Positions 4,741 through 60,104 of a stretch of DNA of 64,000 nt are shown one piece after another. The stretch covers positions 14,295,058 to 14,359,057 of the forward strand of contig CM036631.1 in NCBI GenBank assembly GCA_020746105.1, in the 5' to 3' direction. Within the stretch, counting starts at the first letter, position 1. Every line of letters begins with the position of its first letter. The translations under genes and the position numbers were made by a program. The notes under the pieces are model-generated. The model was not told the origin of the DNA. It searched no databases and saw only the letters and a list, made by a program, of their open reading frames with translations. Source of the stretch: Trogon surrucura. Taxonomy: Eukaryota; Chordata; Aves; Trogoniformes; Trogonidae.

Positions 4741-6808
4741 TAATAAACTCTTGCTCATGTAAGTGGTTCTAGTAAATGTTACACCTACAGCCTGCAAAAT
4801 CCTGATGCAAAGAACTGATTTTGCAACATGTGTACACGTATAAAGTGACTATGTACATCATTTGCAGGTCCTGGCCTGTATAATATAGTTAAACACATGC
4901 GCCTGCCTAAGTGTAGCTTTACACCTGCCTCTCAGCTATGATTCCTGTGAGCATTTAGTAAGGATTTGAATTCATCACGTGTGAAAGTGCCCTTTAGTTC
5001 CAAGGTCTGTGTCCTGGCTGTGTGTGTTGAAGGTAACACACTCTTACCTGTGTGAAAGGAACCATAAACTCAACTGTGTTACATAACAAACCTTTTATCC
5101 TCCTCTGAATATTTGTGTGAAGACAGTGTGCACAATAAAGAGAGAATATAGGATAATTATGGACTGGAAATAATGAGAGCACCAACTCGCTCAGGTCGGA
5201 GTCCCTGCAAATCCATGGAGGTAGCCGTGTAGGTGTTCAGCAGTATGAGGAGGATTGTGCAAAGCAACCAAATATCCCCGCGTGGAAGGATACCTGCATG
5301 TGCAAGCTGTGAACTGTTACGAATAATTCTATTACAACTGACAGCAGTTACCTGCAGCGAGTAGGATTCTTATGTCTGTAATGAGTTGAAGCAGGTATGT
5401 AGTGAGCAGGTGTTTTCCTATAGGCACATCTCGCATGCAAGCATGTGTTACTGGATGTGCCACAGACCTGACATTCTTCTTAGTGAGCTTGGGAGAAGAA
5501 TGAGGTGGAAAAGGGAGGGGGAGCAGAAACCAATCAAAGAAAGCAATACTTTTTATCAATCATATTTGATGCTATTCTTTCTCTCTCTTTCATCACTTTG
5601 ATCTCTCGAATAAAACTGATACTTTGGCCACTTTCCAAACTCTTAGCTCTGCAGTCTGAGAGGGCTCTGGGTTAGCTGCTGAGGGTATGTGTTTGCAATT
5701 ATGCATTTGAAAGTATTTTCCCCTCCGCTGAGATAACATTCTTTTTGTGTTACCACACACTTCTGCTGTCTCGTTTTTCTTCTCCCATGGCACTGGAGGC
5801 TGAAAGGCCTCACTGCGCTCCCCCTCCTCCCCTGATCTTTGCAACTGATATCTGAATAAAATACTTTACTCTGCTGGTATTTAACCTGCTGAGCCTTTCA
5901 CTTTCTAGCTGTGAAACAGACAAAAAGGTATCATGCAGAAACATCCTGGCAGTTTCATTTCTTAATATGCCTCCAAGGTAAGGCAAGATTGAACAGGGGT
6001 GGGAAAATTTACACTAGCCTTAAAGATCTTCAGAGTTTTGTTTAGAGATTAACGTTCACTGAAAACAGCTTTACATTTAGTTTTCCAACCAATAGTTTTC
6101 CACATAGGAAAACAAATTTGGAAGCTCTTCTTTTATTGTTTGTCTGGCTGTCATTCAGTGGGTCAAGTTTGTAGGAATAACGATCTGTCTTTTATGGGAT
6201 AGATTTTTATTTCATTTTTTTTAGCTGATAAATTTTGCCTTCACAATAATGGATTTATGTCAGTTATTAGCATAAGATCAGTTCTTTTGTGTACCCTGAC
6301 AGAAAGCCAAATTTCTTGAGTTGAATAGCAAAATTCTGCATCACCCTATGAGCCCTGTACGCTGCAACCTGTTCTACCACACTTGGTTTGTTTCACCTTG
6401 GACTTGTTCATTGTGGTCAAGAAGGAAACACTATGTCTTCAAAAAACATATTACATTCAGTATCAACAAGGAACATTATATAAGTGTAATTTAAACCTTA
6501 TAGATGGAGCACAGCATTCAATAGGTTTAAAGTGACTAGGGGCAATAAGAATTTGAGCACTACTATCTCAGGTCTGATGTAGCGTATTTCATTCTACGTC
6601 TCTGTGAAAATTAAACATGTGGGGTCCAATCCTATAGCAATCCTTCCCTCCCACTGACTTCGAAAGTTGGTTATATGAACTCTCTCCTTTTTCCAAGCTC
6701 ACACGTGTGTGTGCTTGCAACCACATGCAGGATTTTAAAGGGGTAGCTGCTGCAGTGAGAAGAGACATGTCCTGGTTTTTTTCTGTCTCATAAGAAAGAG
6801 TCCTGTAG
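4741..6808. other. Noncoding stretch, nothing recognised
   Basis: No gene, RNA or mobile element is recognised between the pyrimidine-rich block and the first SINE. Overlapping short frames at 5,332-5,844 on both strands carry no recognisable motif. Confidence 0.6.
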
Positions 6809-6961
6809 GATGGTGCTGATAACACCAAGGTCGCGGGTTCGATCCCTGTTCAGTCCCCATGTGTTGCCTGATCTAGTTGAGAGGCGTCTCGGCCCATGAC
6901 AGGGAGGTTGGATTAAATGATCTCTATGGTCCCTTCCAGCCTAGGACATTCTAGGATTCTA
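6809..6961 (+). mobile_element. tRNA-Ile-derived SINE with CR1-type tail, 5'-shortened (copy 1)
   Basis: The head keeps the anticodon-arm part GATGGTGCTGATAACACC, close to a vertebrate tRNA-Ile, followed by a T-arm with an RNA polymerase III B box (GGGTTCGATCCC, 6,836-6,847). The middle is a unique segment. The tail (about 6,900-6,961) reads GGTTGGATTAAATGATCTC and GGTCCCTTCCAGCC and ends in CATTCTAGGATTCT, which is the 3' end of a CR1 LINE. The tRNA 5' arm with the A box is missing or unrecognisable, so this copy could not drive its own transcription in the usual way. The two other copies at 11,691 and 32,853 align over the whole shared length. The type resembles TguSINE1 of passerines, but the family name is an inference. 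Confidence 0.88.
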
Positions 6962-8080
6962 CAGTGCTTGGAGAGAGGATTTCTTCCAGGTGCTTAGCAC
7001 TGAAATGCCTACGTGTTTCCTGGTTCGGCTAAAGCCAAAGCCTTTCCAAAATCTCTCTGGATTTTAGTAGGATGCAAGAAAGGATTTTGCAGGTCTGCAG
7101 TTACCTGGGACACGATATAGACTTCTCCATTCTTTTATTTTGTGAAGAACTGACAGGGGGCATAAGTAAATGGGTGAAATAAAACTCCTATTCCAAAAAG
7201 AAGTTCCCAGCTAAATATCGCTGATGCTAGTGGCAATGTACATCCTAAATGAGGGACAACGGTTCTAAAAAACTTAGACCTAATGCTAATTAGACCTTGT
7301 TGCTAATTATTCCCAAGTTTGTTTTTTGACCCTGATAAATTCTTGATGTTTTTCAGAGATCTGCATATACCCTTACATCAGTTCTTACACTGAAATGTAA
7401 AGGAAACGTAGATCTTGTTGATTTAACGCAGGTCTGCAGACCAGCTTGGCGTAAGGATTGTTCATGTAATTGTCTTCAGGACTTGGACCCAAACACAGTG
7501 ATTTAGGGTGGAAAAATTTAAAAATAAAATTCTAAATAGATGGCAAGGTGAACTCTGAAATATTTGTAGGACATGGAAACGGCAGTTAAGTAAAATGTAA
7601 ACTTTTACTTGGTCATCTTTCTTCTACTGTTTCCAACCAAGTTGTGACATGCTTCACTGCTGGTAACATCTTATAATTCTTATCTGAGTGGGGTGAATCC
7701 CTCTCTAGCCAAAAAGGTGCTTCAGAGAACTAAGGGCAGCCTGGCTTGGGCCTTGGAGCCTGATCTTTGTGAGGTACAGACTGGATTCAGCAACCACTGA
7801 CACTCATGGAAATGTCTCCTGTTTCCACCGAAGTTCAGAGTTGGTCTAAATTGCCTTAAGCAAAACACAAGTGGCTGAAAGGGAATCAACAGCACTGAGT
7901 ATCTGGTAGCATTTGGTCTTAAAAGGTAAGCTTCGTGTGGACAAAAATGTCTTGTTTTCCATGTTGCTCAGTCTTGGGTGAAAATACAATACGAGACAAG
8001 TAAATGCCAGGCATTGTGCGTTAGTATTTCACAGGGCTGGTTAGTCACCTCTGCTAAAAAGCCTAGACTTGCTCTGCAGT
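6962..8080. other. Noncoding stretch, nothing recognised
   Basis: No gene or repeat is recognised. The stretch lies between SINE copy 1 and the CpG-retaining block. Confidence 0.6.
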
Positions 8081-10210: not shown

Positions 10211-11690
10211 AAAACCTCTGAAAATATGTGCTGTAGAAACCAAGGAAATCTAAAGTCAATTTAAGACATTAACTTGAAAGTGTCAAGCATATTTGCAACT
10301 CCCTCCTTTCTTCCCTTCCACAAAAGACTGCCCATTAGATGCAAAATAATAGGTAACACTGTATGCATTAATTGTGTATTGATAGGGTTTATTCCTGAGC
10401 TAATTTATAAACAACTGTTTGCAAGTCATCTTTTTTACTTTGCAAGAGAGAATGCAGGAGTAGGTTATAATCAACCAAGTGCAGATTTTGCAGCTTGGGT
10501 GGCAGTTGTCTCTGCTAACGGTGGGATGCTTTCATTTATGATCAGAAGTTATACTGAAGACCGGCATTAACCTTTTAGTCTGGTGTGGAACCAGTTGTAG
10601 CAACAGAGGAACTGAACCTCCTCTGTTCTGAAGAGGGAGTCAAACTAGAGGGCACTACAGGCCTCATCCAGAGCCATCCTTCACTTCCTCAAAGTGACTA
10701 AATTACTTCCAGCAATTAGAGTTTGATCCGCTGAGCTGTGCAGTTACAGCAATCTCATGGATGTGATACCAGTCCACGGGGACTGAGAGCTATTAGTACT
10801 CAGGCTTTGACGCTATGGGCCTGCAAGTGAAGGCTCTGTCTGTACTAGCATGTAGTGCCACATCTTCAGAGGACCAAGCTAACGACGTTGCAGGTGTTCA
10901 CCTTCGGACTGGCCGTGGGTGGGACCATTTTGTGGGCTGAATGTCCACTGTCGGCTGGGGGAGCATTTGTGCCCCTTCAGTTTTGTTTCAGCTGAAAGGA
11001 AGTGAGTCCCTGTTCTTAGTGTGATGTGTGCTGGGAGTTGAAGTGTGGTAATTGGGGACATTTGAAGGAGGAGGTTCCTTCAAAAGCATGCCTCCAGCTT
11101 TGACTTGAACACTAATACCCATACTCTGGAGAAAGCTGGTGCAAGTAATTTTAAGTAAAGAGAGTTTTCACCGTGTATTTTCTATAATGGAGTGATTTGG
11201 TTGAATAAAGGATATGCATTTTCTAAGAGAGGGAAGATGTCACAGAGATTATGTCTATTAGGAAATAACATGGCGCTGGTCAATATTCCTGTTCTCCTGT
11301 GGTGTTACGTTGTTGTAATGATCCCCAGCATGGTTTAGGTCAACTTATGCTTTAGACAATTCCTAAGTGAGCCAGAGAGATAAGACAAGCTGTGGGCTAT
11401 CCCTAGTAGGCAACTGGAAGTGGCCAGCCTGTTTCGGAGAGTAAAAAGTTTTAATAGTATTAGAGTGGCCAAACTGTGCTGGTTGACATAAATGTCAGGG
11501 AAGGAGTCCTGGTACTGTTTAGTGTGAAACCGTGGATGGTAGCCTGAGTGACCGTAAATAAAGTAAGAATAATTGCCTACCATAATGAATATCAGACAAA
11601 TAAAGTAGTCAGGTATATGTTGACAAAAGAGACATGAACATGAAAGTTCTTCAAAGAAAAGTGTTGTAAAAGCAAATTGCTGTTTATACA
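10211..11690. other. Noncoding stretch, nothing recognised
   Basis: No gene or mobile element is recognised. A 118-codon minus-strand open frame at 11,335-11,691 ends against SINE copy 2 and shows no domain. Confidence 0.6.
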
Positions 11691-11866
11691 ATCACAGAAT
11701 GACCTAGGCTGGAAGGGACCTTAGAGATCATTTAATCCAACCTCCCTGTCATGGGCAGAGATGCCTCTCAACTAGATCAGGCAACACATGGGGACCCAAC
11801 AGGGATCAAACCTGTGACCTTGGTGTTATCAGCATCACGCTCTAACCGAGTGAGCTAACCAGTCCC
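11691..11866 (-). mobile_element. tRNA-Ile-derived SINE with CR1-type tail, near full length (copy 2)
   Basis: On the minus strand the element starts near 11,866 with a complete tRNA-like head. GACTGGTTAGCTCACTCGG gives the A box, TGCTGATAACACC gives the anticodon arm (GAT, isoleucine-like), and AGGTTTGATCCC gives the B box. The middle segment, containing GTGTTGCCTGATCTAGTTGA, is shared with the other copies. The tail (11,691-11,755) contains GATCTCTAAGGTCCCTTCC and ends in ATTCTGTGAT, the typical CR1 octamer. This is the best copy for defining the family. It has the two boxes of an RNA polymerase III promoter, which is how such SINEs are normally transcribed. I see no target-site duplication, as is usual for CR1-mobilised elements. 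Confidence 0.92.
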
Positions 11867-14800
11867 TCTCCTGTTTACTACGATTAATGTCCCTTATTCA
11901 CGGCTATCTGTTAGACAGAACTCTGCTGTTGTTTTATGCTTTCACCATACATATGCTGTGTATTACCTTCATTCTAGTCATGCTGTCCTATTTAGTGAGG
12001 CCTAGAAAATTTAATTATAAAATAGCGGAGGAGCCTCTTAGAGTGAATCAGATGATCCTCAGAATCAATAGCGATGGCTGGTCTCAAATGATGAGTCTCC
12101 ACTGTAGTTAATGGTGCTTGGATGCCTTTGTCAATGAGCTAATTTCTAAGTGCAATCATGTTACTAACAAGCCTAAACTGGAGGAAAAAAAAAAAAGGAG
12201 ACTTTGAAGGGACAGCTGGTTTTCCTCTTCACCACTTTACTTCTGCATTTGCCAAAATTAAAATCTACTGTAGATAAAGTATGATAGTGTTTCCACTACC
12301 AAGCATGATCCTCTCCATCAACAGACCTCAGAATACTCAATAAGTATCAGTTAATTAAGTCTACCTCACCCCTGAGTGGACAGATTAGTTACTGAGTAAT
12401 AACTTACCTGTGTAACTGGACGGAGAATATGTCAAGAAATTTACCCAAGATTACACTGGAAAATTCTGAAATACTGCTGACTTGAAAGATAGACTGGAAC
12501 CTTTAAAAAAGTGATCACAGTTTGGCTGTGCAATTATGAGAAGTGGTTATGTTATGAGAAGTAGTACACAGCTGTGCTAAAAGCATGATCCCGGAATCAG
12601 ACATGCAAGGGAAGAACTAGATTATCGTAACAGTAAATTAGGATCCAGGACATAACAGGACTAAATCTTCATCAGAAGGAAAGCGCTGGAGTTGTAACTC
12701 AAATTACAAACAAGTTTGGCCCAAAAGAAATAGAATATTTTTACTAATAATACTTGCTTCATGTGGAATGTGGTAGGAAAAAATAGCTCTTGTTTTAAGG
12801 GTTTTCCTTCTACTATTGCCAATCATACACTTTCTACAAATGATAGGTTAAAAACTACACTGGCACTTGCAGAACGGATATTCACGAAGGTCTGAAGGGA
12901 AAAGTCTGGTGCAGCCACTGGGCAATCAAATGGCCGATGTTGACGCATTGTGGCGCTGCTGAAGAGGTACTAGTTCAGTGGGCTAATGTAGTCTTGAAGA
13001 GTAGAGTAGTTTGGAGACTTCTGCTAATTACAGGGCAACAGTCTCATAATTGTATGTCTGACTTATGTGCAGAGGAAGAACATGTATTTGTCCTATTCAA
13101 AAGAATTCATCTTGAAGTTCTCTTCCTCCTCTTTTTTGAGATATAATATTACTTTTCTGTTCTGCATGGCTTCCAGTGAGCCACTTGATAGAGAGTAATG
13201 CTTTATAAAAAAGCCCTGGAAGTCACATTCATTTTAATTGGTGTGGTTTAATTATTCTGCTGTGCTCTAGGATAATCTAGCTACCCTGGAGAGTAGATCT
13301 GAAAAAGCTGTGGGGGCTCCATTGTGGTTGGGCAAGCTAGGAAATGTCTTATAAAAGGCACACTGTATCTGACAAGACTAGACTACATTTGTTTGGTATT
13401 TTAAATTTCACTAATTTTTGCATGCCTTTGAATTAATTATTCTTTTTTTGACATCAAAGGGAAACAGAGGACATTTTTACTTTTAACAGTTATGTGCTAT
13501 AATAATTATTCTATTACTTCAATGACAAGATTTCATTCTTCCTATGGTTCTGAGATTACACGAGGAAATGCAGCTAGTTATAGTTTGATAGAAATTACAG
13601 CTTTGGTTCTTTATTTCCTCAGTGGTGGGTCAGGCTCTGCAAGGTGCTAAGATTCTAATGGCCATTGATTACATCTGAAATTGCTGGGGAGTTGAAGACA
13701 CCTTCCAGAATGTCTTTGGAAACGCTTATTGATCTTGTTTCATCACGTGAGCCTAAATGTATATTTACAGAAATGGGTTTCAATGAAGACCTTCAATTAG
13801 AGAACTCCCAACTCATGAATTTTTGGTTCTACATGCAGATGTTGTAGCTGACTTCTTTCTCTATAGTGGGCCAGGCGGGATGACAGCATTTTCTTTAACG
13901 CAGGAAAGTTACCTTCAGTTCCAGTTCACCTTCTCGCAGTTCAAACCTGATTCTACTGAATAGCAATTTTTCACCCTTCAGAAACCATGATGATTCGTTT
14001 ACGTGAAATATTTTGATGAGCACTTAGATTTAAGATGATTCCTTTGAATTTCAGGCAGCTCTCCATGCCTCAGTCTCTCTGCTGTTAGCACAGCTACGTT
14101 ATCCTTTTCCTTCAAATCCTTTCATAAAACTTCCTTCCTTCAGTTAGCATTTCAGCATCAGTTTCTCCTAATCTTATTATGAGAGGGCTCCAAAACTGAA
14201 CCTTTAGAAACGTGAGAAAAACCACCAACCACCATGAAATTATACTTTTTTTCCTCGTCTTTGTGTTGACAGAGTGAGAACTCATGTCATTTTATCTTCT
14301 TTAACTTTCCTGTGGCACTCTAGTCCTCTCTTCCAAGTTAAATGAAATTGATTAAGAAAGAAAAAATAAATTCTAACTATGTATGCGCAAGTCTTTGGAA
14401 GTTAGGAGTGCTGAACAGGTTGTATGTATAATGTAGATAAGTTATTTCTTTTTTAATTAATTATTTGAAATAATATAGTAACTGCAATATTCAGGCATAT
14501 CCATTTTTTCCTTTTTTTCCTTTGAAGCCTTTCTATACGAGAAACCTCATCACCATGATTATCCACTGTATTTCTCATGTACTAGAGGTGGTCACCTGAG
14601 TTTTCCCTGCCCCATTACTCAGCCTTCTGTCATCTCTATGAGGGTCATAACCTGACGTCCTTGTCAGAGATGGATTTTTGCCTTGCCACACTGACTGCTT
14701 CACTGGTTTCTGCTTTTCAAAGCTCACCAGGCTATTTGGGGACTTGTGTGTCTTGATGTGAAAGGTTTGAGAGCGTGGGCAACAGGGTAGGAGGCAGCAG

Positions 14801-31900: not shown

Positions 31901-32852
31901 AGTATTAGTAGCAGAAAGTATAGCCAACATAGCAATTGTAAAGATTTTTCTCATCTCAGAAAGATTATATAAGGTCTCATCCTCTCTACAGAAAATATAT
32001 TGCACCTTGGAATGAATGCTAATGTAGAAAAATAGGTCTGCATTCCAGAAATATCTAGTTGCTGCTAATAAGTGGTATTTGCCCCTTGTATGCATTATTA
32101 TGACAAATTGCTCAAAGTTGAGGAAAGATGAAGTCTATGTAGGCTAGAAATAAAGCCTTGAATATTGTCCTTCACACATTTTTTTACTGGAGATTTCTTA
32201 CTTAAAGAGGACGCTCAAGCATTATAGAGGATAAGCAAAGTGTAAATCATACATGCAGAAGTTTGGGATGATTTAGTGATAATTTTCAAGAGGTTTACAT
32301 TTTAAAATTAAATAGATATTTTTGAAAGTAGGGATGAGAAGTGGTCTTTCAGCCACCTCACCAAGGTGCTCTGAGTTGATCTTAGGAAAGGGCTGCTTCT
32401 TTTCATTGACTGTAAGGGAAATACTGAAGACAAGCAACAACACGAGGTAGCACTGGGTATGTTGTGCGCTCCTCCCTGCTGGCAACAACAGTTGCTATTT
32501 TAGACTGAAAAATTCCTTTTTTCAGACTGTTCACTTCAGTTACAGTCTAACTGGCTTTTGAACGCGGAATTTAGATGCCCGAGTTGTTTGAATGTCTACG
32601 TTACTATTTGTTCTCTTTACTTTGACCTAGCCTGTTTTGTTCTGGGGACTCTTTGAAAGGTTGGAGGACTAGTGGGATTAAAACAAGTCATTGCATTAGG
32701 GAAATGGAATCTCATTAAGAAGGCAGTTGTGATTCTCTAATCCCTCCCTGTGAGTCCCGCCTCTGAGCCAGCACTTGGGTTGACTGAAGAAATGAGGAGG
32801 TCAAACGGGCTCAACTTCCCGGCACCACTGTGGTGGGGAAGGACATCCAGAA
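28981..32852. other. Noncoding stretch; short CpG-rich tandem duplication at 30,016-30,041
   Basis: No gene is recognised. Two adjacent 13-bp units (TCGCGCACAGCTA and TCGCGCACAGCAA) lie at 30,016-30,041. The segment 29,624-29,877 is open on both strands (66 codons + and 98 codons -) without a recognisable protein. Confidence 0.55.
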
Positions 32853-33033
32853 GGCTGGTTTAGCTCAGTGGATTGAGCATGATGCCTGAAACACCAAAGG
32901 TCGCGGGTTTGATTCCCGTTCGATTCTCACGTGTTGCTTGACCTAGTCGAGAGGTGGTGTCCCTGCCCACAACAGGGAGGTTGGATTAAAATGATCTCTA
33001 AGGTCCCTTCCAGCCCAGGCCATTCTATGATGA
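32853..33033 (+). mobile_element. tRNA-Ile-derived SINE with CR1-type tail, full length (copy 3)
   Basis: The head starts with GGCTGGTTTAGCTCAGTGG (A box) and continues with GATGCCTGAAACACC. This departs from the tRNA-Ile anticodon loop seen in copies 1 and 2 and suggests small insertions. The B box GGGTTTGATTCC follows. The middle segment GTGTTGCTTGACCTAGTCGA and the CR1-derived tail (GGTTGGATTAAAATGATCTC, GGTCCCTTCCAGCCC, CATTCTATGATGA) match the other copies. This is the second near-complete copy and the only intact-length one on the + strand. It is not a working tRNA gene, because the cloverleaf arms are broken and the sequence continues into a SINE body. Confidence 0.92.
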
Positions 33034-33396
33034 TCCACAACCACGACTTTGTGGGTCTGAACACAGCGTTATTAATTTGCTGCTCAGAACCTGACATGTA
33101 AATAAATTCACACCCTCGGGATAATTTACTCAAATCGTAATTTGATGCCTGGTGCCAGCTACGGGTGCACTCAGCTCCAGCACACATTCGTTACTCTGCA
33201 GGAAACACAGAGAAGAAAGGGTTAATCCAGATGCCTGCCTGTAGGAAGGTTACTCACCTCTTCTGGGATGGACAGACTGCAGAAGTGTCAGAAGAGGGAA
33301 TGGTTAGTGAAAGGATGGTTTAATTTCCCAAATTCAGATCAAGAGTCTGAACCTCACGGTGGTTTTGTGGTTTACTCTGTCCTAGGAATGTGAAAG
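33034..33396. other. Noncoding spacer, nothing recognised
   Basis: Short spacer between SINE copy 3 and the palindromic tRNA-like repeat. No gene is seen. Confidence 0.6.
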
Positions 33397-43627: not shown

Positions 43628-44507
43628 AATCACAGAATCACAGAATGTTAAAGGTTGGAAGGGACCTCAAAGATCATCTAGTCCAACCCCCCTGCCAGAG
43701 CAGGATCACCTACACTAGAGCGCACAGGAACGCGTCCAGGCGGGTTTTGAATGTCTCAAGAGATGGAGATTCCACAACCTCCCTAGGCAGCCTGTTCCAG
43801 TGCTCAGTCACCCTCACAGTGAAAAAGTTTTTCCTCATATTTTTCTGGAACCTCCTGTGTTCCAGCTTCCACCCATTGCCCCTTGTCCTGTCAGTGGACG
43901 CCGCTGAAAAGAGCCTGGCTCCATCCTCCTGACATTCCCCCTTGACATATTTATAAACATTGATGAGGTCACCCCTCAGCCTCCTCTTCTCCAAGCTAAA
44001 GAGATCCAGCTCCTTCAGCCTTTCCTCATAAGGGAGATGCTCCACTCCCTTCACCATCTTTGTGGCTCTACGCTGGACTCTCTCAAGCAGCTCCCTGTCC
44101 TTCTTGAACTGAGGGGCCCAGAACTGGACACAATATTCCAGATGCGGCCTCACCAGGGCAGAGTAGAGGGGCAGGAGGACCTCTCTTGACCTACTTGCTA
44201 CTCCCCTTCTAATACACCCCAGGATGCCATTGGCCTTCTTGGCCACGAGGGCACACTGCTGGCTCATGGTCATCCTGCTGTCCACTAGAACCCCCAGGTC
44301 CCTTTCCCCTGCACTGCTCTCCAGCAGGGCAGTCCCCAACCTATATTGGCACATGGGGTTATTTTTTCCCAAGTGCAAAACTCTACACTTGCCCTTATTA
44401 AACTTCATAAGATTTCTCCCCGCCCAGCCCTCCAGCCTGTCCAGGTCTCTCTGAATGGCTGCACAGCCTTCTGGTGTGTCAACCACTCCCCCCAACTTCG
44501 TATCATC
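43628..44507 (-). mobile_element. 5'-truncated CR1 LINE, relatively young
   Basis: This is an avian-type chicken-repeat-1 element inserted on the minus strand. The 3' end at 43,628 carries two and a half copies of the diagnostic octamer (AATCACAGAATCACAGAATG on the + strand), preceded in the element by the short 3' UTR with GGACTAGATGATCTTTGAGG and GGTCCCTTCCAACC. The body is the C-terminal part of ORF2. The 5' break falls at 44,507, immediately at the Asp-Asp of the reverse-transcriptase catalytic motif, so most of the RT domain and the whole endonuclease are missing. Without these it cannot move itself. 5' truncation is normal for CR1. No target-site duplication is seen, as usual for this family. 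Confidence 0.96.
43710..44507 (-). pseudogene. CR1 ORF2 C-terminal fragment (reverse transcriptase end and thumb-to-C-terminal region)
   Basis: The frame is open for about 265 codons from the truncation point to a TAG at 43,710-43,712. The first residues are [14 protein letters not shown], where DD is what remains of the RT catalytic [FY]ADD. Then come [19 protein letters not shown], a region around [51 protein letters not shown] and, near the end, [20 protein letters not shown]. All are hallmarks of CR1 ORF2. In an intact element this protein is the endonuclease/reverse transcriptase that copies CR1 RNA, and CR1-tailed SINE RNA, into a chromosomal nick. Absence of any stop or frameshift suggests a fairly recent insertion. 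The fragment has no start codon of its own at the break and no known promoter, so expression is not expected. Confidence 0.95.
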
Positions 44508-46339
44508 GAAATAACACCTGTCTTAAGTCATCCTATAAAACAGGCTTCTGAAAAGGGTTCTGAAGTTGATTAACTTTGTTCCCCCACCCACTTTGCTTTT
44601 CAAGCATGTTCTGGTTTCACTCAGGGCTGGAAATGAGAGTTGTCAGGAAGGGATAGCTTTGTGGTACACGAGGAAATGCAAGAGTTTGGTAATGGAAGCC
44701 TTTGTCTAGTAAGATTTTTTTAAAAATTTATTCATATAAATGCAAGGAATGGGCCAAAATAAGTCAAATTCCTCATTCATTTTGTGGTGCACCAGTGAAG
44801 CTTTACATGACATGACAACCTGGGGATGATACAGAGTATGTTTGCAATTAAAGTAAGTTGTCAAAAAACAAGCTGTAAGACAAACAGCACTTCCAACATT
44901 TGTGTCCCCTCTCTGAGACAACAACCTGTAGCTGTTAGTTGGCAAGGTAGACCAAAAGATGGCAGAGTTTTTGACTCTGTGTGTGCTTTTGGGGGAGATT
45001 CATTATCTTTTCCTATGTCTTCTCTGCACCTGGTTTCAGGGAGTCAATATTTTTTTAAGCTGGCAAGACGTGCTTTTTCTTTATTGCCAAACTGGTGAAA
45101 TGGCTTCCAAGTCAAAAGAGATCAGGGGTTATTTTGGTTTTCAAAGCTTCCTCTACTATTTTTTTCCCATCTCTCCACATCCTTTGCGCTCAGCAAACAA
45201 GATGGTCGGATTCAAAAGAAAGCGTGCTCAGAACTCAGTCTCTTTTGCAACAGTTGTAAGTGAAAGTACAATCCAACTGTTGGCAAATCACAACCTCATT
45301 GTTTTGGCAACACTGTTTCATTTACTTTTTTTTCTTTTATGCTAACTTGTTTGCTCAGGTATTGGAATTCAGAGTTTTTCCTTCTTTTCAGAAATTCACA
45401 CCCTTTCTGGCAAGGTTTGAACTGATTTTATTGCTTACAATTATACCTACAGGTAAAATAAATACTTTCCCACGGATGCACTGGAATCCAGCATGATTAT
45501 AAGCTGATGTAGCTGTAAGAGCTGAGTTGTACAACTAGTATTTCTGCTGTTCTGTCTTCTCTTTCCGACAGTTCTTAAAGACACAGGACTCGAATCTGTT
45601 CTTGCCCTTGAACAATCACAGCAATTATTCTTAAAGCTTGCAGGGTCTCCTCCATGCAAAGTTGGTGGAAGGAAATGAGAAAAGAACCAAACGACTTGTA
45701 GAGAAAAGAAGTCTAAGAGAAATCTAATGTGACTTTGCCACACAAATATTGCTATGGCCTTTAGTGCATAACTGAGCAGAGCTCTACAATGTGAACACAA
45801 AAATGACATGGAAAGAGCGGTTTGATGTCACAAAGAAAGGCATCGAAAAGTTAGGAAATGCCCTAATTAAGGTTGCCTGTGCAATTCATTATGATTCATT
45901 TTTTAATTATCCGATCACATACTATTTTTTCCGCAGAGCTCTCTACCTCTGTGCACAGGATGTTCGGAGCACTCTTAATGAGTAGTTTGCTTTATCTTCA
46001 TTGTTCCATGTGTGGCCCAAGACCTTATTTACTGTGTGCTATTAAATCCTGTTTTGAGCGCTAAATCTGTAAAAAGGCTTTGGCTTGGTGACCTTGTGTG
46101 CCGAAGTATCTAACTTTTCGGCACCCCGCTGCCTAGTGTCGAGAGGTTGAGTTTATGACCCAGGTGTACTGTCGCAGCTGTATTGCCATCAGAGCAGGGC
46201 TGGTTCTCTGGCCCAGTACTGCAGGGCATTGTGTGGATGTGCCAGTCCCTGGCTCAGGTAACTCCAGCAAGTGCATGCCATTCTGTGGTATCAACCTACC
46301 GTTATCCAGAATTCAAATAAGCATCTCCTTCCATTACAC
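44508..46339. other. Noncoding stretch; one weak exon-like segment
   Basis: No gene is recognised. At 45,194-45,255 a 62-nt segment lies between an acceptor-like TTTGCGCTCAG and a good donor (TTGTAAGTG) and includes an ATG with open frame (M-V-G-F-K-R-K-R...). This is speculative, because such pairs occur by chance. No mobile element is recognised. Confidence 0.5.
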
Positions 46340-57160: not shown

Positions 57161-59121
57161 TCAGAAGGCACACTTAAAAATCCTTGTAGTTTTACACTGG
57201 GTTTCAAAAGAAATGAAGAGCTTTCTAGAATTTTCAAGTGTCATTCTTCTTCTTCCTCAATAAAATACTTTCGTTTTCCTGCTTTTGATTGTGGGAAAAG
57301 CCAATTTAAGGATAATATTAAACAATATGCCTAAAATACTGATTCTTTTTTCCTCTCTGTACAGAGCTCTTTTGAAATGAAAACTCTTTATCTGCTTGTT
57401 TTCTCCTTTTAGTCTTGTAGTACTGAATTTCTTAGCTCCCTCAACAGAATGCATGTCTTACTCTGATGATATATGCTTAACTCACCAGTCTGCCCACAGC
57501 TACTGTCTTTGAGCCCTGCAGAGGCTCTACCTTCAACCTAGTCTTTTGCTTTTGAGACCCTGCATGACTTAGAGGTACTCTTCCCTCTTGGCTTATCATA
57601 AAAGTGATTCTTCCCACTCATTATCTTTTGTATTTTCATACAGCTTCATCTGGAATGCAAATATCCACCAGGAGCCCAAATCTCCCTTTGAATTTCCTAG
57701 TATCACACGGAGGGTGGTCGGAATTGATTTTGAGCAGAGAAAGGGGTTTTTGACTAACTGACATTTTTCATGGAAAATGCTGTGAAATGTAGAGCTTCAT
57801 CTTTTACTTAGAAACCCAAAAATGAAGTTTTCTAGGCCAAAATGAGGAGAAAAAAAAAAACCAAAACAGCCAGCTAACAAATCCTTGAGGCTTGGGTGCC
57901 TTTGTTTCTTGTCCAAATCCACGTTTCTTCTCTTTACTTTCACAGATGCGTTTCTTTGGTCTGTATTTCTACTCGGACTTTTACCTCTTTAGGACATCTT
58001 TAACGAACACTTCAGCAGGTAGGCGGTTCACATCAAAAGAAGTCCTTGCCCACTGCTGCATTTCTGCTGATCATTCTGCTCACCTTCTCAGTCAGTGCAC
58101 GTGCCTGGATATGAATCACTGTGTGCAAACCACTTTGGGGTTCTTTTAACATCAAAGGATCCATAGAAAACCAAATTGTTCTGTTCCCTGTCATGAGCAC
58201 TGAAAAATACTTTGGCAACAGTTTGGTGGGGTGTAAACAATTTATTAAACACAAACCCTGATGCCAAGTGGTGTGTATGGAACAGATTCTCTCAGGCTTG
58301 GGAGTGTGAAGGGAGAGCGCAGCTCTGACGCTGTGAGCAGCTCGAGGCGAGAGTGACCAAGCCTCTCACCCAAAGAGAGAATTGTCACCTCGGGACCAGT
58401 GTTGTGGGGAGGAAACACTGAAACGAGCAGCCCCGTCACACAACAGTATGACCAAGGGGCTCTTGCAGGTGCAAGTTCTTCTGTTTCGGACTCTGTATGG
58501 GGCATTATGACCTCGTTTTGCTGGAGACTCCAAAAGTTAGCTCTGTACAGCGCTCCCAGAGATTAAATAAATTCAAAATGACATGCCCTGCATCCTTAGG
58601 CGTCGTACCATTATGCATACCATTTTGTGCAGAACATTTGTTTATGATTAGATCTTTTATTGATGGCATCATTAGTATCTAAAGAGAGAGTGAAGATTGA
58701 TTTGCTTTGACAGATCGTCAAATATTTTTGTTAGGGTGTGAATGCAAATTATTGTCCATGCAGAGAACTGTAGAAAAAAATTAAAAATATATTACATAAA
58801 CCCCCCACTTTTTTCAAAAAATATAATCTTTAAAAAGTGGAAACAATTGCTTGGAACCAAATCTGCTGAAGTTTGAAGTAAGTTTGTAGTTTGAAGCACA
58901 AATAATGAATGAAACCACTACTTTGATTTCTGACTCATTAAGGAAAAATAGTTCTGATACAATTCTGAAAACAGAATCTGAGTTTATTTCAAACTTGACA
59001 AATACAGGCTTATTGGGACAGCTACACATAGGACTTCAGATACTTCTAAATCTATCTTTATATGGATGACAGCATAGGTTTTTTAATATTTATGTTATGA
59101 TAGTAGATTTTTAATCCTATT
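57161..59121. other. Noncoding stretch, nothing recognised
   Basis: AT-rich, with A-runs near 57,850 and 58,770-58,830. No gene or mobile element is recognised up to the left target-site duplicate of the LINE fragment. Confidence 0.6.
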
Positions 59122-59190
59122 ATCAGTAATTTGAATCATTTTTTTTGTCACCCCAAGCTATACTTCAGAGAGTTAGTTTTCCTACTTCAG
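59122..59190. repeat. Left copy of long target-site duplication (69 bp)
   Basis: It begins ATCAGTAATTTGAATCATTT and ends TTTTCCTACTTCAG. It matches 60,038-60,104 with only three base differences and a two-base change in a T-run. It marks the left edge of the LINE insertion. Confidence 0.93.
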
Positions 59191-60037
59191 GAAGTCTCCC
59201 ATCATCCCCACGTCTCCAAAGGCAAATCAGAGCTTAAGTCCCCCCAGCAGTGCACCTATCTAGGAAGTATCATTTCCTCGGATGGTAAGACTGACAAAGA
59301 GGTAGACAACAGGTTAGCAAAGGCACACAGAGCTTTTGGAGAACTCCATAAAAGAGCCTGGTGCAATAAACACCTCAAGAAAAGTACAAAGATCAGTGTC
59401 TACAGAGCCATGGTACTGTCTGCTCTTTTACATGGGTCTGAATCATGGGTCATCTACTGCCACCACCTGCGACTCCTTGAATGCTTCCATCAGCGCTGCC
59501 TCTGTACAATCCCACACATCCACTGGACTATGTGACTAATGTCACTGTCCTTGAACAGGCAGGGGTCACCAGTACTGAGGCCGTGCTGCTGAGGATGCAG
59601 CTGCGCTGGGCAGGGCACATCTCCAGGATGGAAGATCACCACCTCCCTCAGGTTGTGCTCTGTGGTGAACTCGCCACCGGCTGCCCCAACAGAGGAGCCC
59701 CAAAGAGGAGATACAAGGGCTCTCTGAAACAACACCTCAGTTTTGGCCATATTGACTACCAGCAGTGGTCCACCCTGGCCTCCAATCAGGAAATGTGGAG
59801 ACCCACCATCCATAACGCTGCTACCTCTTTTGAGAACGCAGTAGAATTAGTCCGGAGGAGAAAAGGCAATGCAGAAAGAGCCGTGCCTCGCCAGTACCGC
59901 CTAAGGAGACTTTCTGCTGTGCCTTTTTCCAACCGGACTTGCCTATCCCGCATCGGCCTTTTTAGCCATCAGTGCGCTTGTAGCAAGTATGGGTAGAGCC
60001 CTTCCCATATCTTTGTTCACAAAACCAAGCCATGATG
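59191..60037 (+). mobile_element. 5'-truncated non-CR1 LINE insertion (RTE-like features), 847 bp
   Basis: The insertion sits exactly between two near-identical direct repeats (59,122-59,190 and 60,038-60,104). It contains the end of a reverse-transcriptase ORF and a 3' UTR of only about 40 bases after the stop at 59,994-59,996, ending in CCATGATG with no poly-A tail. Its protein is unlike CR1. A very short 3' UTR, a short trinucleotide-like 3' end and a long variable target-site duplication are features described for the RTE clade, so RTE affinity is my inference; other clades are not excluded. The element is 5'-truncated and frameshifted, therefore immobile. Non-CR1 LINEs are rare and patchy in birds (AviRTE is a published example). 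Confidence 0.85.
59192..59996 (+). pseudogene. LINE ORF2 C-terminal fragment, one frameshift
   Basis: The first frame (to a stop at 59,533-59,535) reads CTYLGSIISSDGKTDKEVDN, then RLAKAHRAFGELHKRAW, a KISVYRAMVLSALLHGSESW segment and LECFHQRCLCTI. This is the thumb-like region following the RT domain of endonuclease-type LINEs ('YLGS.IS.D...EI..RI.KA..AF..L....W....L...TK..VYRA.V...LLYGSE.W'). Around 59,515-59,535 the similarity moves to another frame (a net change of one base) and continues: VLEQAGVTSTEAVLLRMQL, RWAGHISRMEDHHLPQVVL, GELATGCPNRGAPKRRYKGS, then CLSRIGLFSHQCACS at the end. That last motif looks like a decayed C2H2-type finger. Apart from the shift there are few visible defects, which suggests moderate age. 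The RT catalytic part and the endonuclease are absent. Confidence 0.88.
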
Positions 60038-60104
60038 ATCAGTAATTTGAATAATTTTTTGTCACCCCAAGCTATACCTCAGAGAGTTAGATTTCCTACT
60101 TCAG
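60038..60104. repeat. Right copy of long target-site duplication (67 bp)
   Basis: It begins ATCAGTAATTTGAATAATTT and ends GATTTCCTACTTCAG. Differences from the left copy are one C/A, one T/C, one T/A and two fewer Ts in the T-run. It marks the right edge of the insertion. Confidence 0.93.

Follow-up and report, generated by a model that had tools for sequence, protein, structure and literature searches.

The window, i.e. the whole 64,000-nt stretch of Trogon surrucura DNA that was analysed (C18:14295058-14359057 of genome G000), contains a fragment of the LINE AviRTE that is bracketed by what is most likely a target-site duplication (TSD) of 69 bp. With high confidence, this locus is attributed to a dead, 5'-truncated AviRTE copy that integrated by target-primed reverse transcription, with a distant break of the second strand and an annealing-type joining at the 5' junction.

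The 5' copy of the repeat is found at 59122..59190 (+, 69 bp) and the 3' copy at 60038..60104 (+, 67 bp). The two differ by three substitutions and by two nucleotides in a run of T. Local alignment of one flank against the other gave a score of 114, and the highest score among 300 dinucleotide shuffles was 36, which rules out a chance repeat. The initial annotation, in which direct repeats of 69 and 67 bp were described on either side of 847 bp of LINE sequence, is thus confirmed. The alignment of the repeats ends at both outer edges with no extension beyond. The protein homology to other copies opens at 59185/59188 and the 3' untranslated region (UTR) of the element ends at 60039, and these positions are the inner edges of the 5' and 3' repeats, respectively. 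The position of the TSD edge is uncertain by 2 nt, as AT is common to the element tail and the target, and that of the 5' junction by 4 nt, as TCAG is common to the target and the element. The three substitutions (n = 68) amount to a divergence of 4.4% (95% 0.9-12.9%). At assumed substitution rates of 3.3-1.5e-9 per year this translates into an insertion age of ~7-15 million years, an estimate too loose for use.

The distribution of the repeat was followed across the Trogon genome (G000; 1,165,559,148 bases in 164 contigs), using a repeat search that leaves out very common words. A query comprising the 5' copy and its upstream flank (59040-59190, 151 bp) returned two matches from two candidates, namely itself and, for query positions 80-151, the sequence beyond the element. 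The partner copy is the sole other genomic place detected for the 5' copy, and other copies of the TSD sequence or its upstream flank were not found in this 1.17-Gb genome. As the repeat was detected at these two places alone, neither a repeat family nor a segmental duplication elsewhere in the bird's own genome is indicated. This confinement also bears on the idea that a host tandem duplication of the 69-bp sequence predates AviRTE, which would then have landed between the two units. The idea draws on the order of events being unproven without an outgroup. Still, we consider it extremely unlikely: it requires a landing exactly between the units, with both element ends at unit edges, and no further genomic place was detected for the repeat or for its upstream flank.

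The insertion between the repeats spans 59191..60037 (+), with an edge at up to 60039 if the target-shared AT is assigned to the element. A remnant of the AviRTE ORF C-terminus accounts for 59191..59996 (+), including a TAG stop codon at 59994-59996, as judged from the list of open reading frames and the tblastn frames. According to tblastn, it is read in frame 1 to ~59530 and in frame 3 thereafter, and is out of frame at ~59834-59960. The 3' UTR follows at 59997..60039 (+, 43 bp) and has a short GAT repeat at its end. Comparison of its last 19 bases with the published primer AviRTEfull-4R shows 17/19 matching positions. For the other nine AviRTE primers a close match is lacking in the window, the best placements having 4 to 7 mismatches, as expected if they are sited upstream of the truncated copy. 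The endonuclease and reverse transcriptase domains are absent from the window copy, and a second AviRTE piece was not found within the window, neither with the 124 protein hits (tblastn) nor with the 3'-end word, which gave one exact match.

Two ORF pieces at the locus, 59107-59532 and 59481-59993, resemble LINE C-termini. Protein matches at E <= 0.001 were obtained for 30 of 45 and 98 of 147 candidates, respectively; a Pfam search with both pieces and a PDB search with the second piece gave no hits. The best named matches stem from the suboscines Pitangus, Manacus, and Willisornis, followed by two fragments from a parrot (Amazona). Below these bird fragments rank a handful of named invertebrate sequences and numerous unnamed ones. 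The frame change at ~59530 resembles the loss of one short-repeat unit, and Pitangus fragment P0001 starts with nearly identical out-of-frame residues. A frameshift common to the window copy and P0001 may reflect either recurrent slippage or shared descent.

For the family assignment, a tree of 107 rows and 103 columns was calculated. A 103-residue piece was matched by 114 of the 124 protein hits, and the tree holds the 106 that matched over at least 60 residues plus the window. In this tree, in which 62 of 103 inner branches fall under 80 and five rows represent invertebrates, a branch with an SH-aLRT value of 99 unites the window with 37 suboscine and two Amazona rows and holds zero invertebrate rows. 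None of the bird rows is labelled as AviRTE, and their identification relies on host and kinship: the branch is assigned to AviRTE because this is the RTE reported from those hosts and because of the primer match. Within the branch, the window row shows a weak affinity to Amazona and to a single Willisornis row (82, open fork). The copies from the Trogon genome show median identities of 75.2 and 73.8% to the Amazona fragments. The corresponding medians for suboscines are 74.2% (Pitangus P0001), 74.2% (Manacus), and 65.6% (Pitangus P0017), and the 11 Willisornis fragments compared fall at 63-76%. The Trogon copies are thus about as distant from the best parrot fragments as from the best suboscine ones, which would be compatible with a third host lineage. 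A Branchiostoma fragment, P0090, has a median identity of 67% to the genome's copies and of 73% to the window copy over 79 residues; the latter value lies above that of several bird fragments, which were aligned over longer stretches. In the tree, P0090 is placed outside the bird branch.

CR1 identity was considered as well and is ruled out. Using tblastn with 120 CR1 protein hits, no CR1 match was detected at the insertion locus, and the tail is a GAT repeat, not the CR1 3' microsatellite. The initial annotation had proposed a LINE other than CR1, of the RTE type and possibly AviRTE, and both parts are borne out, the first by the CR1 search and the second by the tree, the 43-bp 3' UTR, and the primer match. 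AviRTE belongs to the RTE clade, has been described in birds and filarial nematodes, with horizontal transfer, and comprises a ~0.8 kb 5' UTR, a ~3.2 kb ORF, and a ~40 bp 3' UTR (PMC4844689). It is published in seven bird clades, hummingbirds included, and not in the sister groups of those clades (PMC4844689). Judged by its sequence, the fragment is the 3' end of AviRTE, and as an element it is an ordinary one. The overall reading of the initial annotation holds for the non-CR1 identity, for AviRTE, and for the overlong TSD, but was overstated, given that AviRTE in birds and its horizontal transfer were already published (PMC4844689).

CR1 does occur elsewhere in the window. A CR1 copy at 43634-44654 (-) includes a 270-aa open stretch and is closest to swift and hummingbird CR1 among the matches listed. 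Its ORF (43713-44522, -) shares 88% identity with Chaetura and 87% with Calypte over 89-90% of the ORF, and other named matches reach 82% at most among the best 120 of 8000 scored, a list ordered by E-value that may lack short fragments from other lineages. The 3' end of this CR1 copy resembles, at 80-82%, the tail of a SINE that is present in the window in three copies, at 6804-6965 (+), 11682-11875 (-), and 32850-33034 (+). Each combines a tRNA-Ile head with a CR1-like tail; in the second, ARAGORN places a tRNA-Ile at 11790-11865. The same build is known from TguSINE1, which has a reported origin in Eupasseres (PMC5729268). CR1-mobilised SINEs are present in only some birds, and those in the window may represent a further one outside passerines.

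AviRTE itself is a multi-copy family in the Trogon genome. The element search yielded at least 40 scored matches (best 40 of 799 first-look candidates), of which the 39 other than the window copy show 88-91% identity. Moreover, a 19-nt word from the 3' end has 192 exact genomic copies, and its reversed control has none. The window's exact 18-nt form of this end occurs once in the genome; the 192-copy form has one base changed and is one longer. Further analysis was based on 41 copies, comprising the window copy and 40 fetched ones (39 from the element search, one from the 3'-end search) that span most of the query, copy L041 from query position 40 on. Element lengths range from 847 to 4048 bp, with 8/41 at 3.4-4.05 kb. 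In terms of length, copies of this genome thus attain the published size of ~4 kb, the longest fetched copy having 4048 bp. On average, the window copy is the one least similar to the other copies (mean identity 0.907, the rest 0.909-0.940), suggesting that it is old or fast-diverged, although this ranking is a rough guide, the other copies having been chosen by their likeness to the window copy. At C7:17466639-17595314, at least five same-strand AviRTE 3' ends with a spacing of ~30-34 kb were noted among the matches listed; this array is suggestive of a tandem segmental duplication whose unit includes a single AviRTE copy.

To compare TSD lengths, repeats anchored at both element ends were scored with a cut-off of 18, which was reached by 0.7% of 1771 swapped pairs (maximum 21). 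For the four longest TSDs, the gapped score and length were substituted for the ungapped values. A TSD passed this cut-off in 17 of 41 copies, window included, and nothing passed in the other 24. The detected lengths are 10, 10, 10, 10, 11, 11, 12, 12, 13, 13, 14, 14, 15, 25, 26, ~58 (copy L015), and 69 bp (window). With 13/17 at 10-15 bp and the window's value the longest, 69 bp is an outlier for AviRTE, about five times the usual length. The norm is here defined by 17 copies from a non-random set, in which elements of at least ~850 bp were ordered by their likeness to the query. The earlier suggestion of a duplication far above the LINE norm is accordingly upheld for the AviRTE copies of this genome. 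A wider local scan, covering up to 400 bp upstream and up to 300 bp downstream, separated the four longest TSDs (scores of at least 37) from the other 37 copies (at most 28); in 328 swapped pairs, the 99% value was 28 and the highest score 43. A TSD of more than 50 bp is present in 2/41 copies, one being the copy that prompted the search. The five near-full-length copies with a detected TSD all show 10-14 bp, and all TSDs above 20 bp belong to truncated copies (4/12 vs. 0/5; one-sided Fisher P 0.21, by hand).

The left edge of the TSD carries the signature of an ordinary nick. The TSD opens 10 nt downstream of the end of a T5 run (59108..59112, +), and the T|A step at 59121/59122 makes its first base an A, which together form a Tn-TA signature. 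T|A was read at 13 of 17 detected TSD starts (12/16 minus the window), relative to a TA dinucleotide background of 6.7%. This tally may be inflated, because the GAT tail shares AT with the target and can shift the called start onto A. Still, T|A in combination with the T-run makes the first-strand nick look ordinary. The same edge is relevant for endonuclease-independent insertion, in which AviRTE RNA would be copied at a pre-existing staggered double-strand break and fill-in would give the long duplication. A TSD of atypical length, the 5' truncation, and microhomology at the 5' junction (see below) are all in line with such an event, but the T|A step with T5 10 nt upstream, recurring as T|A across most detected TSD starts, speaks against it, as does the complete 3' tail of the window copy. 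Endonuclease-independent LINE insertions are often 3'-truncated. Endonuclease-independent insertion is therefore regarded as unlikely.

At the 5' junction, target and element share the 4-bp microhomology TCAG (59187..59190, +), which by itself is weak evidence. The element side of this match is conserved, with CTCAG at the junction point in 32 of the 33 longer copies compared, the exception being L039 (CTCTG). Two further copies read CTCAG (L036) and CTCGG (L020) at this point, and L041 is broken there and was left out. For L015, the copy with the ~58-bp TSD, microhomology comparable to the window's TCAG is not evident in the alignment.

These features are most simply accounted for by target-primed reverse transcription with a distant second break, as follows. 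The endonuclease would nick the bottom strand at T|A, ~10 nt downstream of the T-run, and the element RNA, with a GAU repeat at its end, would be copied starting from the nick. The top strand would then break ~69 nt downstream, where 10-15 nt are usual, and the long 3' overhang produced in this way would end in ...TCAG. This overhang may anneal to CTCAG in the element cDNA and prime second-strand synthesis, so that priming at CTCAG would set the 5' truncation point. Filling in the gap would finally duplicate the 69 nt. We infer the order of these events and annealing as the joining route, and the distance of the second break is deduced from the insertion product alone. Joining of the annealing type has been described for 5'-truncated LINE inserts (PMC4245944).

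Five of the 41 copies (the window copy at 59191, L015, L022, L028, and L042) start within ~15 bp of CACCTCAGGAAG. L022 has a short tandem duplication at the common start point, and zero fetched copies begin in the ~110 bp upstream of it. A 5'-truncation hot spot near the window start point is possible, although recognised post hoc and with copies truncated further downstream invisible to the element search. These starts touch on the proposal that long duplications reflect a separate mode of integration linked to a single truncation point. The window copy (69 bp) and L015 (~58 bp), which have the longest TSDs, are truncated within ~4 nt of each other, with L022 and L028 starting within ~15 bp and L042 ~10 bp downstream, and the ~110 bp without a fetched start adds to this pattern. 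However, the pattern is post hoc and involves five copies, with no TSD passing the cut-off in three of them (L022, L028, and L042), and the element search is blind to copies truncated further downstream. Upstream RNA folding is unremarkable as well (z 0.04 to 1.26, four stretches), and a distinct mode of this kind is judged very unlikely. The same four folds argue against an RNA hairpin having set the truncation point, an idea that was rejected. A second AviRTE integration mode, in which the second strand would break 50-70 nt downstream and truncation would favour one point of the element RNA, thereby linking TSD length to truncation point, seems very improbable.

Taking target-primed reverse transcription with a distant second-strand break as the preferred reading, the first-strand cut looks standard even with a long duplication, which locates the anomaly in the cleavage of the second strand, the half of LINE integration that is poorly understood. 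The 41 copies from one bird genome describe AviRTE TSDs as typically 10-15 bp long, with rare values of 25-69 bp.

Among other RTE-clade elements, TSDs of 10-12 bp are known for SR3 and of 10 and 7 bp for HzRTE-1, and two RTEs from hagfish have TSDs of 16 or 18 bp and 6 or 19 bp. RTE-1 from C. elegans is said to have long TSDs. For APE LINEs in general, 10-20 bp are given (PMC6895275). The window copy resembles published AviRTE as an RTE-clade bird LINE with a ~40-bp 3' UTR and the 17/19 primer match, and further in its broken ORF and in the ~4-kb copies of the Trogon genome; it differs in that the published insertion in the suboscine ornithine decarboxylase gene has a TSD of 13 bp, as compared to 69 bp here (PMC4844689). 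Bov-B from squamates and ruminants is distantly related to AviRTE (PMC4844689). It shares the RTE superfamily and a short simple-repeat tail with the window copy, and its TSDs start with an A after T, ~10 nt downstream of a T-run, which is the same Tn-TA signature (PMC13295347). The Bov-B survey described there took perfectly matching TSDs of 10-49 bp, so that the window's TSD would escape it, and another TSD survey covered 5-30 bp (PMC2912911). Cases like the one in the window are thus uncounted in surveys with such ranges.

Very long TSDs are on record in other LINEs. R9 from bdelloid rotifers has a very long TSD like the window's, with 126 bp between its two cuts (cited in PMC6895275). R9 is rDNA-specific and known for its exceptionally long TSD, whereas the length in the window is an exception within AviRTE. 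For human L1, PMC2912911 cites Gilbert et al. for TSDs of 10-17 bp in full-length inserts and for extremely long TSDs as outliers among 5'-truncated inserts, similar to the window. L1 belongs to another LINE clade than AviRTE, and these data derive from a HeLa cell assay. The view of the TSD as unusual in the initial annotation stands in so far as 69 bp is an outlier for AviRTE, with L1 and R9 as precedents among other LINEs. In view of these precedents, the insertion in the window is most probably an uncommon result of an established process.
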